From: Cenococcum geophilum 1.58
Taxonomy: Eukaryota > Ascomycota > Dothideomycetes > Gloniales > Gloniaceae
NCBI GenBank assembly: GCA_001692895.1
Contig: KV748199.1
Span: 1,612,001 to 1,676,000 of the forward strand
Direction of reading: 5' to 3'
DNA: 64,000 nucleotides
Shown here: one piece after another, positions 37,509 through 57,565 of the stretch
How positions within the stretch are numbered: the stretch's first letter is position 1
Layout of the letters: the number at the start of each line of letters is the position of its first letter
Notes under the pieces: generated by a model
What the model saw: only the letters and a program-made list of their open reading frames with translations
What the model was told of the DNA's origin: nothing
Database searches by the model: none
Translations under genes and position numbers: made by a program

Positions 37509-38540
37509 TCATGCATTTAACTTCCCTAAATCCACCCCAGTCCAGATTTCATATTTGATTGACTTGCAAAGAGACAATCTCCTCGAAATCTCTGCGACAA
37601 AGACTTCATCTGGCCTCTCACTTCCCCCCGGTTCTATGTATGCAAACTGCACCCATTCAATATCCAAAGATTGAAGGCTATCCGCAAATTGCTCGAGAAA
37701 CACAGTCAATGACCGCTGTGTTGTTGGAACAGCTAGTTTCAATCGCCAGAGCCCTGGACATGAGACCTTCTGTTGCAGTTGTGCAGGAAGGTCGTCGTCA
37801 AGCATATATGCCCTATTTCCCAACATCGCAGTTGAGCCATACGAAATTTCCAGTTCCTCCAGTTTCCTGAGCTGCTGGATGAAAATCGCAACATGTCCCG
37901 CCATATAAATCTCATTTCTTAATTCTGTAATTTCGAGCCGACGGAGGTTGATAAAAGCCACTCCCATTTCTTGATACCCAAGTTTGACGCCTTCTTTGGG
38001 GACAAGAGGCCAGTAGCCCTTGTTTGATTGTGGAGGCCAGAAGAGGCTGCAATCAGCATTGATCTTGAGAGACTTTAACCTTTGACAGGCAGCCGCCTTT
38101 TTGATAACAGGGAGCAAGTAGTTAAATGACGTAAATTCTTCACCTTCCCCATAGTATTTTATCCAGTTTCTATAGTGTGTAGTGATAATAATGGATTTGA
38201 GGTTCGTAAAGAGACCTACTACCCTATGTAAATCCTCACTTGTGGTGTCAGTCCCCCTAGTCGTTCCTAGTGGTTGTATGTAGAAGACAATATGTTTGAC
38301 CATCTGACAGAAATTTTCGGTGGTAGCCAATGCAATAAAATCCCTCATCCTCCTCGGAGATGGATAAATATGCACCACGGAGAATAGCAGCGGACTGGCT
38401 ATGTGAGCTATTTTCCTACACGTACTGCGAAGTCGTTTAAGGGTTTTAGGGTCGCAATAAGTAAGAGTATGGTTGATGAGTTCTTCAGGGAGTTCCAGTA
38501 TCTTGAATGGGCACGGCCGGAGACGCTTGGCTGGGTTCAT
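37509..38540 (-). CDS. F-box protein with LRR-like C-terminus
   Basis: Single exon from ATG 38540 (MNPAKRLRPCPF), 343 aa; the frame also opens 19 codons earlier at 38597, but that part reads through intergenic sequence. The F-box lies near residues 11-50: ILELPEELINHTLTYCDPKTLKRLRSTCRKIAH. It is followed by ASPLLFSVVHIYPSPRRMRDF and loosely repeated Leu-rich strands (FINLRRLEITEL, LRKLEELEISY, LWRLKLAVPTTQRSLTVFLEQFADSLQSLDIEWVQF). F-box proteins link substrates to SCF ubiquitin ligases through Skp1. The protein shares architecture and several phrases with the F-box gene at 44415-46189, so the two are probably paralogues. Substrate unknown. Confidence 0.85.
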   Translation of the reverse strand: MNPAKRLRPCPFKILELPEELINHTLTYCDPKTLKRLRSTCRKIAHIASPLLFSVVHIYPSPRRMRDFIALATTENFCQMVKHIVFYIQPLGTTRGTDTTSEDLHRVVGLFTNLKSIIITTHYRNWIKYYGEGEEFTSFNYLLPVIKKAAACQRLKSLKINADCSLFWPPQSNKGYWPLVPKEGVKLGYQEMGVAFINLRRLEITELRNEIYMAGHVAIFIQQLRKLEELEISYGSTAMLGNRAYMLDDDLPAQLQQKVSCPGLWRLKLAVPTTQRSLTVFLEQFADSLQSLDIEWVQFAYIEPGGSERPDEVFVAEISRRLSLCKSIKYEIWTGVDLGKLNA

Positions 38541-39065
38541 GGTCGGCGGGAGGTTGGGCTGAAAGCAAAGCAGTGTTGTCCTAAAGACCTTGAGCATGAG
38601 GTTAGCTTCATTACGGGCAAAGCTTACCGGAAGCCCATGAGGTTAGCTTCATTACGGGCAAAGCTTACCGGAAGCCCATGAGGTTAGCTTCATTACGGGC
38701 AAAGCTTACCGGAAGCCTAGAGAAAGGCGGAGTGCAGACTGTCAAGGATGTCTCCACGTCGACGACGGAAAGTGGTCGAGGCACTCCGGAATCTACGCGC
38801 GTATGACGCTCAATGCCAAGACGCCCAATGCCAAGACGCCAAACCGACAGGTCGAGAACGCTCTGGCAGATTCTGGGATTCTAGAAAACCTGAACAGCTA
38901 TTAAATTATTAAATTATTTCGAGACTACTTAACCGGAATATGAATTTCAAAACACCGAAATTTTCATGCGGCTCCAAACCGACTACCACTCCAATGGACC
39001 CTGACCGCCCCCAGTTGTGCCGCAGAGGGACCTCAATCCAGCTAACTCATCCAGTTCTTTGCATA
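38541..39065. other. Intergenic upstream of the F-box gene
   Basis: Contains the 41-bp triplication annotated separately, and a short partial duplication (AATGCCAAGACGCC twice) at 38811-38841. No gene seen. Confidence 0.5.
38595..38717. repeat. Three perfect tandem copies of a 41-bp unit
   Basis: 38595-38635, 38636-38676 and 38677-38717 are identical; each starts CATGAGGTTAGCTTCATTAC and ends TACCGGAAGCC. The array starts 55 bp upstream of the F-box start codon, so it lies in its promoter or 5' leader. Perfect identity suggests a recent expansion. Confidence 0.95.
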
Positions 39066-40268
39066 CTAGGGGACGAGTATTAGCTTCGGATCCGTCGTGT
39101 GATTTTTTCCATGCTCGATCTCACCTTGTTCAGCCCTCCGGCACTCACTGCTTCTCCCTTCTCGTCTCGAGCCCGGTAGTATTTCTCCTCCAGACATCTG
39201 CTCAAGCTTGAGATGAGCTTTGAGTAAAGGTAAAAATACGGGCTTATCCGATAATGGTTCGTCCTTCAGCTTAGCATACTTGCATTCGAGCTCTCGAACC
39301 CATCCTTGGAAGTTGTTTGAGAGAGCATTCTGGTAAGCTTCTCCAACCGATATTTTACGTGTTGAGTATACGTCGCATCGCACAGAACTTTTGGAAGCGG
39401 AGACGGGAAGCACAGTCAAAGCAACCCAAAGCGAGGTTCCGGCAATGGTCTTTACGGTGGTTAATGGGGATAAGCTTAGCCTATCATCTTCCCGAATGGC
39501 AACACTGGTACCTCGAAACATGAGCATATATGCAAAAATTGAATTTGATCTCTGCTGAGTGCGTTGTGTGACTTTATTTTCGATTGGATCTTGCGCTGCT
39601 TAAACTGATGAGTATGGCCATGCTATAATAAATATATTTTAAAGTTTAAATGGCTCACCTGCGGCTTTCCAGTTGAAGTCTCCTCTAATTTCCCATCCCG
39701 CTACCCATGAGCTTTGCGCAGTGATACCATATTGAGTAGAGAAGCTGATAATCTGTTCACAGCTCGGAGGCTCTACAATCTCACCGGCATCTAGATTGAT
39801 GTGGATAAACCCGCCCTTGTCAGTACAGGTATGAATCTTGAAAAGACTATTTTGGGCCTTGTCAAAACCGGCAATACCGTCGAATTGCGGCGCCTTTACA
39901 AGATTTCCTTTAGTATCATAGCTCCAACCATGATATTTGCAACCAAGGACTAGAGAAGACCCAGCAACTTTCTTGGTTACGGCATATGCTCGGTGTCTAC
40001 ACACGTTATGGAAAGCTCGAGGAATGTTGTCCTTGCCAAGGATGATGAAGATTGGGAAGCCTGCCATTTCCATAGATATATAATCACCGCGTCTGGTGAA
40101 ACGGCTTCGATGCACGACACAAATCCATGTCTATTACAAGGTCAATTTGATTACAAAGGATAATTTTGATAACATTACTTTGCTGAATATTGCCCGCCTC
40201 TCAAGCATGAACAATTTTTCATCTGTCCACCATCCTTCAGGAAAGCCTGGTTCTTTAGACACTTCCAT
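39066..40268 (-). CDS. Rieske [2Fe-2S] protein with degenerate ring-hydroxylase catalytic domain
   Basis: Three exons: 40268-40179, 40130-39659, 39598-39066 (introns GTAATG...AATAG, GTGAGC...TTTAAG); phases close at 364 aa. The N-terminus ([20 protein letters not shown]) and the Rieske domain match ring-hydroxylating oxygenase alpha subunits. Cluster ligands are present: CRHRAY (C-x-H) and, 18 residues after that His, CKYHGWSY (C-x2-H). After GDFNWK, where the family has the NYxECYHCxxxH iron-binding helix, this protein reads [11 protein letters not shown] and has no His pair. The later strand [23 protein letters not shown] still matches the catalytic-domain sheet. It should carry an electron-transfer cluster but no mononuclear iron. 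Adjacent to, and on the same strand as, the complementary gene at 40958-42010. Confidence 0.85.
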
Positions 40269-40957
40269 TGTTGGCTCGTCAAAGAAAAGGTGATGAGCCC
40301 AACTGAACTTGCGTCACTAACAAGTAATATGAAATTAGCCTGCGCAAGATATTAGCAAGCTAGGAGGTCTTGATGCTCGAAGTCCAAATAATGGCGTAAT
40401 TAACGGATTCAGAAGAAACAAGACTATTATTGGATTGAGTAGCACAACTATGAACGGTGAATGCGAATTTCTATACCAAGTAGGAATCAAATACCATGAC
40501 TCTAAATCAAATCAATAATATACATATCAAGCTGCATGAGTTCCAGACTGGGCCATGTTATGGAAATTCTCCGGAGTTCTTTGTGGGGTGCGGTAGACGT
40601 CTGGGATTACCACAAACAATTTACATAATCTAAACGACTTTATTCGTCAAAGGAATAAGAAAAGTTAGCAGAGGAATTGAACGCCGATAGAGGTAGGACG
40701 AATGAAACCGAGTTGCCTTTTTTGGTTATATTTTCCCGCTTGCACACCCAACAAAAAAGCCGAGATCTATCCATTCATGCAGGTCATGATCGACGCTAAG
40801 AGGAAGAAAATAGGTCGTTGAGCTACAGCATGCGCATGTCGGGCCGCAACCCTAATTCAAAGCCTTTCAACTTGTCAAATGATTCATGGCAAGCCTACCA
40901 GAAGCAAACCAGTGTTCGTGCATATAAGCCAGCAAATACTCGTGATTTTCTGGGACC
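40269..40957. promoter_or_regulatory. 689-bp spacer between the two Rieske-family genes
   Basis: Serves as 3' region of the upstream gene and promoter of the Rieske gene. No coding sequence; a plus-strand frame at 40818-41021 is a shadow. Confidence 0.5.
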
Positions 40958-42010
40958 CTATGAAGCTGCAAGCTCCACAAGGCTGGAGCGTGCCACGTAT
41001 TTGTTGCTTGGAACCGTGTGACTGGGGTTAACGCGTTTCTCTCCCTCGTGCTGCGAGCAAACAAGGTCGAGAACGCGTTGCTGATAGACTTTATGTAACA
41101 CATCAATATCTTGAAAAATACGTTCTTAACCGGGAATTGCTTACAGACTACTCCAGTCTCTTTGACCGGATTAAGTATCCCTTCAGTATAGATACCCTTT
41201 TCCAGATTTTCTTGGGCCTTTTCACAAAGCTCGAAATCTTCTATGGCGACCTGTCTTACAAACTTGAAGTATTCTTCAAATTTATCGCCCGATTCCGTAT
41301 GGTAATAGTCAAATTCCATCCGGGTGACCCCAGGCTTCTCCGTCGGGCAAATCCGGAACGATGACATACCACCACCGTAAACATTGAGTGTACAATTAGG
41401 AAAGAAGTAGAGGAAGAGGCCGTCATTCCGTTTTTTTGGATCCGCTACATGTTGGGAAAAGTTCTTGTGGTTGTATACAGTATAAAATGTTGGCGGATAA
41501 TATATGGAAAATGAAGGATGAGTGTATTGGCAGTGCAGGCATTCTTGATATCCATCCACCCTAAATTAATTAGCAACTTGTTTCGTTAAAAATCCGTCTA
41601 GTTGACTTACATTGTCTTCCAGTTGAAGTTGCCCTCGTACTTGATGCTTCGCCGGTATGGAAGTTTTGTGAAATCTACTGTCGCAAGCAAAGGTTCCAAA
41701 TCCGGAAAGAATTCATCAAAAGTTGGTGCGTGGGCTGATATTGTAGTAAAAAGAAGCCCGGTCTCTGTCAAATGGCTTCGCATTTCGACACTCTGCTCAA
41801 CTCGATGAGTGTTGCTTGCAGGATAATTGGCAGCGCCAGGTGACGCGCAAGCATACTGACATCTGCTGTGTAGACCTTGATATCTCGAACTCCCTCGGAG
41901 TTGCGGCGAACTGTCAACCTAATCTGAGCTATCTCATAGTCTACCTCTTCCCCAATGTTCCGAAATCGAGTTGCCGGTCCTAGAAGGTACCATGACTGTC
42001 CGGAAGTCAT
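40958..42010 (-). CDS. Ring-hydroxylating oxygenase alpha-subunit homologue lacking the Rieske cluster
   Basis: Four exons: 42010-41861, 41795-41611, 41560-41145, 41088-40958; introns GTCAGT...TTGAG, GTAAGT...TTTAG, GTAAGC...ATAAAG; phases close at 293 aa. ATG 42010 follows an in-frame stop. The catalytic domain is intact: EGNFNWKTMVDGYQECLHCQYTHP gives the E-x2-H-x4-H iron ligands and inter-subunit bridging Glu, and VAIEDFELCEKAQ gives the third carboxylate ligand, as in choline-monooxygenase-type enzymes. The C-terminus FYQQRVLDLVCSQH fits too. The N-terminal half aligns with the frame of a Rieske domain (WYLLGPATRFRNIGEEVDYEIAQ, then SHLTETGLLFTTIS), but both C-x-H and C-x2-H loops are absent. 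Its first intron is the least certain; its acceptor (TTGAG) is not pyrimidine-rich. Confidence 0.8.
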
Positions 42011-42776
42011 TATGGGGTGTTACGGCTACGGTTTTGTTGGAATGATACTAGCCTTCATAAAGACCGCACGACGCTCAAGTTGATAGAGAGGTGAGCTACA
42101 GTACCAGGACGCAGGAAGGGTCTTAGTGAGGGAAGCCATATCGAGACCTGAATGCACACAAACGAACGAAAAATTCTGGGGGTTCTTCTTTCAGCTTACT
42201 CAAGTGCGAGTCTTGGAATTATGTTTTCACGACATAGCATTGCATAAAATATATAATTGTGACTGTAAATGGATAAAACGTCCCGATACGTGATGAAGCA
42301 TGGTACCCGCATGCCGGTTTGTCATGGAAGCCTCGTATTACGTGCCTGGTCTCTTTATTGCGCCAGGAGCAAGGCCTGGAGTTGATAATGCTTATCGCGA
42401 GTTGGACGAAATCTACACTTCAGGGATCACCAGCTTATCGCAAGTCGGCTGCAAAGCAGCAGTGACCCGGTGACTGCGCGATTCAAGCCGGCATCTCCGG
42501 TATCGATCCACATTGAAGAGATGTGTTATTGTTGCAGGACCACGTAAGACAAGCGTGTTGATCCTTCGGTTGTGCATTTTGGAGAGGGGTTAGGTTGGTG
42601 GCTCTAGCAAATCAGTAGGATTTATTTCTCCGCGGGAAGAGTGGGTTGATAGTGTTCACTAGCAAGGGGAATATAAGCTTGTCAGCAGCTCATATATAAT
42701 AGATATCTGAAAGTTTGGAGATACTTTACCGGCTTTACCAGATTAGGGTTTCAATACGCTTGGCTTGAAACATCAT
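42011..42776. other. Intergenic, no gene seen
   Basis: Probable promoter of the oxygenase gene. No coding frame could be supported. Confidence 0.45.
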
Positions 42777-49716: not shown

Positions 49717-52185
49717 ATGGCAACCTTTAATTTCAAGCCACTACAAGTGGCGAAACGAAAGTTGCAACCTTACAACACTGTACCGGCTTATGATCACGAA
49801 GGCGACTCTTGCGATGTTGAGAAACGCTTATCTGACGACGATGGTGAATATCTCTCCTCTCCTTCCTCCGCTTTCTCCTCCCGAGCGTCTTCGGGCGTGC
49901 ACCAGCAGATGGTCCGGCGGCATTCGACGGCGAGACCGACAATTAATGCATACTCCTATCGAAATCCGCGAGCCTTCTCCCGATACTTTACGCTGGCGCT
50001 AGGATCTACAATAATAATATTTATACTCTTCTTGACGAAGATGGGATGGTCATCGACGAAGAGTGTGCAATTGGGATTATCGAAGCCACCTCCGCCGCCA
50101 CCGGTGTGGGAAAGCTTCCCATTTCTAAAGAGGTATCATGGAGGCATACGGGCATTAACATCGCGGCCTCAGAATGTGCCGGAATATCCAGGGGAAGGAG
50201 ATGAGGCTCCCATACCGTCATCATCACCTGTGGCCGAGGAAGGACGAGATCAGAATTCAAAATTTGAGCGTCGATTGGAAGGCGGAGGCGTGCCACCCAG
50301 CGACCGGTTTAATCCTTATCCAAACTATGAGTCGGAAGCATATCTCAACGAATTCCCTCCCGTGCAGCCCTGCTATCTCGATGCTGAAGAAACAACCAAG
50401 ATACCTCCCCTGCGCGCTTATCATGGTGTCCCGCGAGGCATGCCAGACAATGTGATGGGATCCTATGAGGTTCTTGGATTGAGGAACGATGTCTGCTTCG
50501 AGCGATTTGGCAGGTTAGGACCGTACGGATTGGGATATAGCAGAAAGCTGGGCGGGACAGGAGCTGGTATGGAAGGAGACAGAGAGGGCATAGATAAGGT
50601 GTGGGAAGACGATCAAGAAGTTGATTTCAGGGAGGTCAAGTGGGCAGAAGTACAAGACCGTTGCATGGAGAAGAATCATCTTCGCTTCAAAGCCAAGCCC
50701 AAAGGCAAGAACCACTTTTACCAGACAATGGCGATGGGAGGTCCAGATGCAGAGTTACCTGACGCTACCTCAGGGGAATTGCATGAGCTGGCCAAGGAAG
50801 GGAAATATACCAATTCTACCGGCAACAAACCTCCAAAATCCCCACCTCATCACAGTCTTATATCTCGCACTGTTGTTTTGATTCGCACATGGTGGGACTA
50901 CAACTACGATGACGAAGATCTTATGTTCCTGCGAGCTCTCATCTCTGAGCTTTCTGTCCAATCCGGCGGCGAATACACAGTCCACTTTCTCGTCCACGTA
51001 AAAGACGATAATAAACAGATTTGGTCAGACGATGCCACCTACCAAGAAGTCCTTGATAATGCCCTTCCAGCTGAATTCAAAGGTATGGGAACTCTCTGGT
51101 CTGAACGTCAAATGGGTCTTATCTACGGTGGCCTGGAGGAATCACTCTACCGCAACCTACCCGTCCACGGAGCATACCGCTCTACCTTCATGCCGGTCCA
51201 ATACTTCGCACACCAGCACCCTGAATTTGACTACTTCTGGCACTGGGAAATGGACATCCGCTACACAGGTCATTTCTACCATCTCTTCGACCGCATTTCC
51301 AACTGGGCTAAAGCGCAACCACGTAAAGGGTTATGGGAACGTAATTCGCGTTTCTACGTCCCAGCTGAGCATGGCTCGTGGGAAGATTTCACGCACATGG
51401 TGCGCGTGCAGACAGAGCATGGCACAAACAACAAAGCAAACACATGGTCTAAGCACCTTCCCGAGAATCCAAATGTCCCCTCCACCGAACCCGCAAAACC
51501 GGAGAAGCCAATCTGGGGCCCCGAACCACCACTCGACGACGAAATCGACCTCTATGAATCTCCGGAAGTCACCGGGCCTTACAAAGACGATAATTACATC
51601 TGGGGCGTCGGCGAGGAGGCGGACCTCATAACCTTCAACCCACTCTTCGATCCCGACGGCACCAACTGGATCCTCGCTGAAGACGTGACAGGCTACAACA
51701 CTTCGCGCTCGTTGCCACCCCGACGCACAGCCATCATCACGGCGAGCAGACTGAGCAGGAGGTTGCTCGAGACGATGCACCGCGAGACGGCACTGCACCG
51801 CCGCACCATGTTTTCCGAGATGTGGCCGGGCTCCTGCGCGCTGCACCACGGGCTCAAAGCTGTCTACGCGCCACATCCCGTCTTCATCGACCGCCGATGG
51901 CCTACTGGTTATCTCGCCGCTATCTTCAACGGTGGACGGAACGGCGCGGCAGGCGGAGCGAGGTTGAGCGTTTTCAGCGATGAGAGGCAGCATAATTTCC
52001 GCGGTACGACGTGGTATTACGACGCGGGCTTCGCGCCGAATCTGTGGAGGAGGTGGCTAGGATATAAAGTTGATAATGATGGGGGCGAGGAAGAAGAGAT
52101 GGCGGGTGAAGGGAGGATGTGTCTTCCCGCCATGTTACTACATCCAGTGAAGCAGACAGATCTGGTGTTTGAGCATGAGGAATAG
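49717..52185 (+). CDS. DUF3405 family membrane protein (putative glycosyltransferase-like)
   Basis: Single exon, 822 aa. The N-terminal about 85 residues are cytosolic and Ser-rich; TM at about 88-106 (YFTLALGSTIIIFILFLTKMGW); then a long luminal domain. DUF3405 hallmarks are present: RTVVLIRTWWDYNYDDEDLMFLRALISEL, YTVHFLVHVKDD, the FMPVQYFAHQHPEFDYFWHWEMDIRYTGHFYHL block, TWSKHLPENP, WGVGEEADLITFNPLFDP, SRRLLETMHRE, FSEMWPGSCALHHGLKAVYAPHP. The fold resembles nucleotide-sugar transferases (WHWEMDIRYTG sits where a DxD would), but no activity is established for the family. Type II topology suggests Golgi. Start ATG 49717 is supported by the composition change there. Confidence 0.9.
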   Translation: MATFNFKPLQVAKRKLQPYNTVPAYDHEGDSCDVEKRLSDDDGEYLSSPSSAFSSRASSGVHQQMVRRHSTARPTINAYSYRNPRAFSRYFTLALGSTIIIFILFLTKMGWSSTKSVQLGLSKPPPPPPVWESFPFLKRYHGGIRALTSRPQNVPEYPGEGDEAPIPSSSPVAEEGRDQNSKFERRLEGGGVPPSDRFNPYPNYESEAYLNEFPPVQPCYLDAEETTKIPPLRAYHGVPRGMPDNVMGSYEVLGLRNDVCFERFGRLGPYGLGYSRKLGGTGAGMEGDREGIDKVWEDDQEVDFREVKWAEVQDRCMEKNHLRFKAKPKGKNHFYQTMAMGGPDAELPDATSGELHELAKEGKYTNSTGNKPPKSPPHHSLISRTVVLIRTWWDYNYDDEDLMFLRALISELSVQSGGEYTVHFLVHVKDDNKQIWSDDATYQEVLDNALPAEFKGMGTLWSERQMGLIYGGLEESLYRNLPVHGAYRSTFMPVQYFAHQHPEFDYFWHWEMDIRYTGHFYHLFDRISNWAKAQPRKGLWERNSRFYVPAEHGSWEDFTHMVRVQTEHGTNNKANTWSKHLPENPNVPSTEPAKPEKPIWGPEPPLDDEIDLYESPEVTGPYKDDNYIWGVGEEADLITFNPLFDPDGTNWILAEDVTGYNTSRSLPPRRTAIITASRLSRRLLETMHRETALHRRTMFSEMWPGSCALHHGLKAVYAPHPVFIDRRWPTGYLAAIFNGGRNGAAGGARLSVFSDERQHNFRGTTWYYDAGFAPNLWRRWLGYKVDNDGGEEEEMAGEGRMCLPAMLLHPVKQTDLVFEHEE

Positions 52186-55925: not shown

Positions 55926-57565
55926 ATGCCAGCAGGCATGCATCCTCCAGAAATTGACCTAGCTTTCTCTAGCAATCCTGAACTCAGAAAAAGAGTTCAC
56001 GATGCCATCAGTAAGTTGGCTTAGGCTCCAACATCTCCGCGTATGTATGCTTTAATCCTCCGAACTAACAATTACCGTGTTATTGTAGACGAATATCCAG
56101 CCCACAGCATTCTCTTCCGCGATATTTCCTCCTACATACTCAGCGCCCCTAGCTGTCAATCCACGCTCGTCAATGGTGAACCAGCCACGAAGAAGCGTAA
56201 AGTCGAGAACGGCGAGCGTGAATTGAATGGGGCTGCAGGCAGGTCCACAGCAGGCACTTGGGTCGATGCAGCGGTGCGGGCATCGTGGCAAGGCCGAGAC
56301 ACTAGCTTCTCCATACCCCAGCGGAAGAAGTTGACGCTGGAAATGGTGAAGAGGGGCGACGGGTGTAAGGAGGGAGGAATTAGGGGCATAAACCCTGCGA
56401 CCGGGGCTGTTGAATTCGGCGTTGGATGGAAGAATATTGGTGAGTCTACTACTGTGCTTCCCAGCAAATTTTTGGGATTTAACATGCAAAACTAACCGGT
56501 GCGTCCTTAAAGAGCAAATATTCTGTCTTCCCCTCCCGGAGAAAGCCAAGCGTCAGCATAACCTCATCGTAATACCAGTCAACGGCGATGGCGTAAACCC
56601 TGTTCCTGACTCTGTTACTGCGCCCCCCGAGCCGATTGTCTGGACATTCGCGGAGGCGACGGGCAAGGATGTTAAGGAGGGCGAGGATCCGGGACCTGCA
56701 CCTATCGCAGCAGTTATAAATGAATGCTTAGCGAAGGAAGGTGTAGGGAAGAAGGTAGTGTTCCCAGATGATAAGGAGTTTGCGAGTGCGATTGTGCAAA
56801 GCCATCGCAAGGGAGAGAAAGCATTTCATGTCAAGGCGTTTAGGGGAAGTAAAGACGGTGAGTTTGTTCAATTCCCACTTCATCTCACCCCTCATGTCAA
56901 CACTTGAACCATATATAAGAAATCGGTCTGAAGGCACTGTATCCCGAGCTACACATGCTGATAAGTATGCAGGCTTTCTCTTCTTCACCTCCGTTGGCAT
57001 CCTCTGGGCATTCAAAAAACCTCTCGCCTTCTTTTCCTTCGACACTGTGTCCTCAATATCTTATACATCCGTCCTCCAACGCACATTTAACCTCAATATC
57101 GCCGTTTCGCATCCTACCGATGCATCAAAAACTCCAGAATTTGAGTTCTCTATGTTAGACCAGGCAGACTATGCGGGTATCGATGGATACATCAAGAAGC
57201 ATGGGCTGCAGGATGCCAGCATGGCAGAGCAGAGAAAGGCCAAGAAATTAAATGTCAACCCCCCAGCTGTGAAAGCGGAGAATGGCGCTGCGGGTGATGG
57301 GGAGGAAGGGGAGGACGAGGAAACGGAGTTACAGAAGGCAGAGAGGTTACTGCAGGAGGAGGATGATGAGGAAGAAGAGGATTATGATCCTGGGAGCGAA
57401 GGAGAAAGTGAGGGGAGTGGGAGTAGTGATGAAGAGGATGAAGGGGGTGAAGGATATGAAGAGGGGGGCGAGGAAGAGGAGGGATACGAAGAGGGAGAGG
57501 GCTATGAGGAAGGGTACGAAGAAAGGTATGACGAGGGCGATGAGGAAATGGAGGAGCAGTATTGA
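55926..57565 (+). CDS. RTT106: Histone chaperone RTT106
   Basis: Four exons: 55926-56010, 56089-56439, 56513-56857, 56973-57565; all introns GT..AG and phases close at 457 aa, the usual RTT106 size. The N-terminus [18 protein letters not shown] leads to [17 protein letters not shown]; a nuclear-localisation-like [11 protein letters not shown] lies near residue 55. The tandem PH domains include [20 protein letters not shown] and [28 protein letters not shown] segments, then [21 protein letters not shown]. The C-terminal about 110 residues are almost purely acidic (Glu/Asp/Gly/Tyr), as in the family. RTT106 binds H3-H4, especially K56-acetylated H3, and deposits it during replication and in heterochromatin and histone-gene silencing. 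Nuclear. Confidence 0.93.

Follow-up and report, generated by a model that had tools for sequence, protein, structure and literature searches.

A conserved pair of neighbouring fungal genes with complementary metal sites suggests a Rieske oxygenase divided between two chains

In Rieske oxygenases the cluster of one subunit passes electrons to the iron of the next; for NdmA/NdmB, a review gives a cluster-iron distance of 44.7 angstroms within a subunit and 12.1 angstroms between neighbours (PMC10380055). Because electron transfer runs between subunits, a cluster-bearing chain and an iron-bearing chain can work as a pair, provided that they lie side by side. Indeed, the principle of a split Rieske oxygenase is already known from two systems: the chlorophyllide a oxygenase (CAO) of Micromonas is described as occurring in two polypeptide chains (PMC9615114), and NdmC, the catalytic subunit of the NdmC/NdmD/NdmE 7-methylxanthine N7-demethylase of Pseudomonas putida CBB5, has no Rieske cluster, which is supplied by NdmD (PMC10380055). 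Here we describe two neighbouring genes, C and R, in a 64-kb window (the whole stretch of DNA analysed, positions 1612001-1676000 of contig KV748199.1) from the 177.19-Mb, 162-contig assembly of the ascomycete Cenococcum geophilum 1.58. Both genes lie on the minus strand, side by side, with C upstream and R following. They encode two chains with complementary metal sites: neither R nor C alone is a complete alpha subunit, and the two centres are not on the same chain. We consider it likely that the two proteins belong together as subunits of a single Rieske non-heme iron oxygenase from the CntA/choline monooxygenase group, in which R feeds electrons to C.

The division of motifs that an earlier note had read from this locus was confirmed in the sequence: R has the Rieske ligands only, and C has the iron helix and carboxylate only. 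R, a Rieske-bearing pseudo-alpha subunit of 372 aa (spliced model, 40268-38983; minus strand, as for all R and C features below), carries the first ligand pair as C74-x-H76 (CRH, 40001-39993) and the second as C94-x2-H97 (CKYH, 39941-39930), both invariant in 72/72 aligned R rows. In profile alignments with C and with carnitine monooxygenase CntA, R lacks, after its GDFNWK stretch (39683-39666), the helix that binds iron in normal alpha subunits, and the spliced protein contains no E-x2-H-x4-H downstream of it. R ends in a C-terminal extension (39215-38983) with the motif H315-x3-E319-x3-G323 (numbering of its relative P0001) and a conserved terminal Trp. C, a catalytic alpha subunit of 316 aa without a Rieske cluster (spliced model, 42139-40958), has the bridging Glu and the two His iron ligands as E141-x2-H144-x4-H149 (ECLHCQYTH, 41544-41518), aligned to ECYHCGPAH of CntA, and the third iron ligand as the Asp within EDFELCE (41241-41221), aligned to CntA EDLNL. 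That this Asp is the actual third ligand is our assumption from the family. Both cluster-ligand loops are missing from C between RRNSEGVRDIKVYTAD and SVEMR (41908-41778, with the intron 41860-41793 inside), and here the loop residues of CntA align to a gap.

Like the CAO of Micromonas pusilla, which is reported to occur in two polypeptide chains (PMC9615114), C and R would make up a Rieske oxygenase in two chains. Unlike the fungal pair, CAO belongs to an alga, acts on a chlorophyll substrate and falls into its own CAO subfamily, whereas the fungal halves are nearest to CntA among solved structures, are encoded by neighbouring genes and occur in many fungi. For Micromonas CAO, Kunugi et al. 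(2013) reportedly described one motif set per chain and a requirement for both genes in a plant mutant. NdmC resembles fungal C in being a catalytic subunit without a cluster that is served by the Rieske domain of another protein (PMC10380055). In NdmCDE, however, this domain resides on the FNR-type reductase NdmD and the GST-like NdmE is part of the complex, whereas fungal R is a pseudo-alpha subunit in which, as in P0001, Pfam gave no match to a reductase family with an E-value of 1 or below. CntA (6y8j) differs from both fungal chains in carrying the two centres on one chain. Complete enzymes of the CntA/choline monooxygenase (CMO) group seem to exist in other fungi, since one study mentions CMO-like fungal proteins in which a Rieske domain is combined with a non-heme iron domain (PMC6157903). 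In searches of the open-licence literature (most subscription papers lie outside it), we found no report of a split fungal Rieske oxygenase in the titles and abstract openings of the matches listed. As far as these searches reach, what seems to be new is the combination of fungi, the CntA/choline monooxygenase group, a conserved neighbouring pair and two alpha-shaped halves.

R is encoded by four exons (40268-40179, 40130-39659, 39598-39125 and 39065-38983) separated by GT-AG introns of 48, 60 and 59 bases, and C by five (42139-42053, 41995-41861, 41792-41611, 41560-41145 and 41088-40958), with a 57-base GC-AG first intron. While the earlier note was right that both genes are present, it ended R at 39066 and began C at 42010. 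R ends at 38983: positions 39124-39066 are its last intron, which joins a missed 83-base exon ending in the conserved C-terminal Trp of the family. C starts at 42139, in a first exon that ends at the GC-AG intron and had likewise been missed. The 364-aa R model stopping at 39066 is superseded by the four-exon model; the search for R relatives and the Pfam scan of R used this shorter version, before the fourth exon was added. It is 70% identical to P0001, a 372-aa protein of Lepidopterella palustris; this species provides the closest named relative for both R and C among the matches listed.

The splicing of C can be compared with three public proteins of 316 aa each (P0121-P0123; 98, 94 and 91% identity), encoded on contigs of 1856, 1770 and 2010 bases that we read as spliced transcripts. 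Residue by residue, P0121 matches the spliced C from end to end with seven substitutions. Taken as transcripts, the three records agree with all four C introns, including the GC-AG one, and, in line with the earlier claim that C has lost its cluster loops, none of them contains a hidden exon restoring these loops. C had also been considered as a pseudogene on account of an apparent frameshift; the GC-AG and 68-base introns explain the frame, and the match of P0121 to the spliced protein led us to reject this candidate.

The complementary losses extend through both families. Our searches returned 780 proteins for R and 342 for C, the best 120 being listed in each case. Among the best 120 of the 780 R relatives, C-x-H-x(12-25)-C-x2-H is kept in 118, the exceptions being P0081 and P0084. 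The E-x2-H-x4-H pattern appears in three of these 120: in P0079 and P0083, where it belongs to the C part of fused models, and in P0116, where it is a chance match near the C-terminus. The best 120 of the 342 C relatives all have E-x2-H-x4-H (120/120) and ED-x2-LC (120/120), and none has the Rieske motif. Complete close relatives of C were looked for among its longer matches (56 proteins of 334-1062 aa), and none of the 44 that were read has a Rieske motif before the iron helix; the other 12 were already within the C list of 120. The mean share of the commonest residue, averaged over regions with hand-set limits, is 0.85 in the cluster loops of R and 0.34 in its pseudo-catalytic part (72 of the 120 listed), and 0.92 in the iron helix of C and 0.43 in its missing-loop region (25 sequences). 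The H, E and G of the extension motif H-x3-E-x3-G are present in 72/72 aligned R rows, and the terminal Trp in 95 of the best 120 listed R proteins. The depth of this conservation excludes a chance origin of the motif pattern: R and C are conserved fungal families with reciprocal conservation, not products of local decay. In public databases the halves are labelled 'choline monooxygenase, chloroplastic', 'Bet v1-like' or 'ISP domain-containing'.

The two genes also stay together. In 21 of the 28 species common to both match lists, the R and C records show an equally long longest contig, which we read as R and C lying on one contig; of the other seven, five have locus-tag prefixes of different assemblies and are not comparable, and A. 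flavus and P. salamii are not judgeable. Locus tags of R and C are adjacent in 5/5 pairs where they are visible (one set being numbered in tens), and in Mariannaea the contigs of R (P0059) and of a C whose model is joined with a transcription factor (P0262) are likewise equal in length. All 22 gene models with both Pfam domains, retrieved in a search limited to longer proteins, have the order C then R; their genera we take to be Dothideomycetes and Eurotiomycetes. In a 23rd fused model, P0253, the R part is present and the cluster stretch is missing. Even if these fused C-R models are annotation artefacts, as they probably are, they imply same-strand adjacency. Fusions of C with R or with a Zn2Cys6 transcription factor are seen in the public models P0241-P0256, P0269-P0273, P0262 and P0280, and the five Aspergillus models among them (P0269-P0273) are without the iron-ligand stretch, probably through gene-model error. 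On one contig, L006 (NYXK01000188.1), C and R are neighbours in opposite directions, head to head; here the gene order has changed and the neighbourhood has been kept. L006 is filed under a deltaproteobacterial metagenome-assembled genome, but the fungal genes with introns that it contains suggest contamination from a fungus; its C is similar, by eye, to Leotiomycete rows. Among the matches listed, co-occurrence and neighbourhood came out as the earlier note's reading implied, with the R and C families on one contig or side by side in Dothideomycetes and Eurotiomycetes and, divergently, on L006.

PF00355 is the only Pfam family above the cut-off in R, and PF00848 the only one found in the C relatives P0121 and P0124. 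An hhalign comparison of the R family with the C family spans 262 columns at a probability of 98.75%. On CntA, R covers residues 40-329, from the Rieske domain into the catalytic domain; when the profile of the C family is aligned to CntA, ECLHCQYTH comes to lie on ECYHCGPAH, ED on ED and the ligand-loop stretch of CntA on a gap. An alpha-like fold, that of an alpha subunit, is kept in the R part (2 of the 50 rows listed), and C retains much of the Rieske-domain core without the cluster loops. Judged by sequence, carnitine monooxygenase CntA is the nearest solved relative of both R and C. The suggestion in the earlier note that the catalytic half looks closest to choline-monooxygenase-type enzymes holds in this sense, CntA being a quaternary-ammonium enzyme. 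One bacterial match lies beside BetT and another beside CaiT. Our best guess is that the substrate would be an N-methylated or quaternary ammonium compound.

The enzyme we infer would have two chains that both keep the shape of an alpha subunit, with one metal site each. R would hold the [2Fe-2S] Rieske cluster on a pseudo-alpha subunit with a dead catalytic domain, and would take electrons from a putative NAD(P)H reductase. The cluster tip of R would dock against C, and the electrons would pass via the bridging Glu of C (E-x2-H) to its mononuclear iron, which would activate O2 on the substrate. As a stand-in for the heterodimer we used fused C-R gene models in AlphaFold, the first of which gave a pTM of 0.78. 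Genome searches with the C and R relatives found this locus only, and a six-frame search, in which introns can hide genes, turned up no further Ring_hydroxyl_A match with an E-value of 1 or below. The six-frame search gave three other Rieske matches (L001, L003 and L004), which by eye we take to be assimilatory nitrite reductase, an AIF-type reductase and the bc1 Rieske protein, respectively. Pfam found no reductase gene in the window among 19 of the 25 listed open reading frames (ORFs) of at least 160 aa, all of them unspliced; by eye, contig C12 (L026) may hold a candidate FNR-plus-[2Fe-2S] reductase of the type serving such oxygenases. No relatives were found in viral contigs.

Several points weigh against one oxygenase in two chains. 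In an alpha3 ring of the canonical kind the number of positions is odd, which rules out a simple alternation of C and R; the two would need a trimer of mixed composition, a ring with an even number of subunits, or a trimer of C to which R docks externally. A second fused model, from Aspergillus, gave a pTM of 0.53, which is about what two halves without defined contact would give; this level of ~0.5 for unrelated halves is our own estimate and not a control, and the two fused models disagree. In the single R rows of alignment A4, a mean of 53 residues per row falls in the C half. Given the low conservation (0.34) of its pseudo-catalytic part, R may serve a further function or another one. Co-occurrence was read from the listed matches (120/780 for R, 120/342 for C), which leaves room for solitary halves, and no transcript-like R record from the same species is among the best 120 of the 780 R matches. 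Finally, the best phylogenetic tree does not join the two: R stands apart from C, at the end of a very long branch.

This last result also bears on the origin of the pair, for which the earlier note had proposed a duplicated alpha subunit with reciprocal loss. The tree was built on 262 shared columns of hand-picked sequences: 14 of C, 12 of R and 13 of relatives from prokaryotes, of which 12 are complete alpha subunits and the remaining one is a haloarchaeal protein without the loops. While its best topology separates C and R, a constrained tree joining them is not rejected (p-AU 0.25), and one with C and R together inside the quaternary-ammonium group is narrowly not rejected (p-AU 0.067). 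Duplication followed by reciprocal loss is plausible and unproven. The loop-less haloarchaeal relative, a 336-aa 'SRPBCC family protein', resembles C in that both cluster-ligand loops are lost and the iron helix is kept (ECDHCQANH). It is encoded on plasmids of Haloterrigena turkmenica, salifodinae and Halocatena salina (L020, L021, L022: 5941-6951; three read), with matches of the same length and 82-85% identity in Natrinema, Natronococcus and Haloprofundus. In Halocatena salina a single small gene separates the loop-less gene from that of an intact alpha subunit, and the catalytic halves of the two are nearly identical. With a complete alpha subunit as neighbour, the loss in Halocatena is one-sided, unlike that in fungi, and is possibly an intermediate toward a split.

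How the two chains would be arranged is a separate matter. Within the two-chain oxygenase, C could form a homotrimer with empty cluster pockets, while R would be a Rieske carrier that docks from outside and is membrane anchored in many fungi; taken by itself we regard this arrangement as tentative. It is somewhat favoured by a hydrophobic, membrane-anchor-like segment at the N-terminus of R: among the 120 R models, 90 could be scored because the alpha fold had a recognisable beginning, and 71 of these have the segment, for example P0020, P0027, P0038 and P0073; models with this segment are mostly from genera that we presume to be Eurotiomycetes and Sordariomycetes. An outside carrier would also fit a C that keeps much of the Rieske-domain core with its cluster loops gone, and NdmC is likewise served by the Rieske domain of another protein (PMC10380055). 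However, the alpha-like fold of R is more than a carrier needs, and the segment has no room in the R of this window and is lacking in most Dothideomycete relatives scored. It is conceivable, though doubtful, that fungi evolved, independently of algae, a two-component Rieske oxygenase in which a dead alpha subunit, often tethered to a membrane, is dedicated to injecting electrons into a catalytic trimer that has no clusters; its electron-entry and oxygen-activating halves would then be open to separate regulation or localisation.

A less probable explanation, to which we give little credence, is that the two products have separate functions: C would work with an unrelated electron donor, R would be a redox or sensor protein, and their neighbourhood would be left over from a tandem duplication. 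The pTM of 0.53, which gives no sign of a defined contact, and the poorly conserved former catalytic part of R would both agree with this. However, the losses in R and C are reciprocal, the neighbourhood survives a change of orientation and is kept in both Dothideomycetes and Eurotiomycetes, and the best tree does not favour a shared origin of the two by tandem duplication, although such an origin is not rejected either. Last, despite a C that looks frameshifted when unspliced, the rare GC donor of its first intron and the lack of a transcript-like R record among the matches listed, it is very unlikely that R, C or both are pseudogenes in decay here, as the spliced frames are complete to the C-termini found in relatives, both losses are common to the listed relatives and near-identical transcript-like C records exist.

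The surroundings of the pair contain further ORFs with Pfam matches: an F-box ORF (37509-38597, minus strand), a putative mannosyltransferase (PF11051; 35325-36917, minus strand), an 822-aa DUF3405 protein (49717-52185, plus strand) and an ORF with an Rtt106-like middle domain (56768-57565, plus strand). Between R and the F-box gene a 41-base unit is present in three perfect head-to-tail copies (38595-38717).

If C and R do form one oxygenase, they would be a widespread natural case in which separate genes encode the two metal sites of such an enzyme. The model of electron transfer between subunits could then be tested directly, since either site could be purified, mutated or exchanged independently of the other. 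The pair would also point to an uncharacterised metabolic step common to many Pezizomycotina, including industrial moulds.
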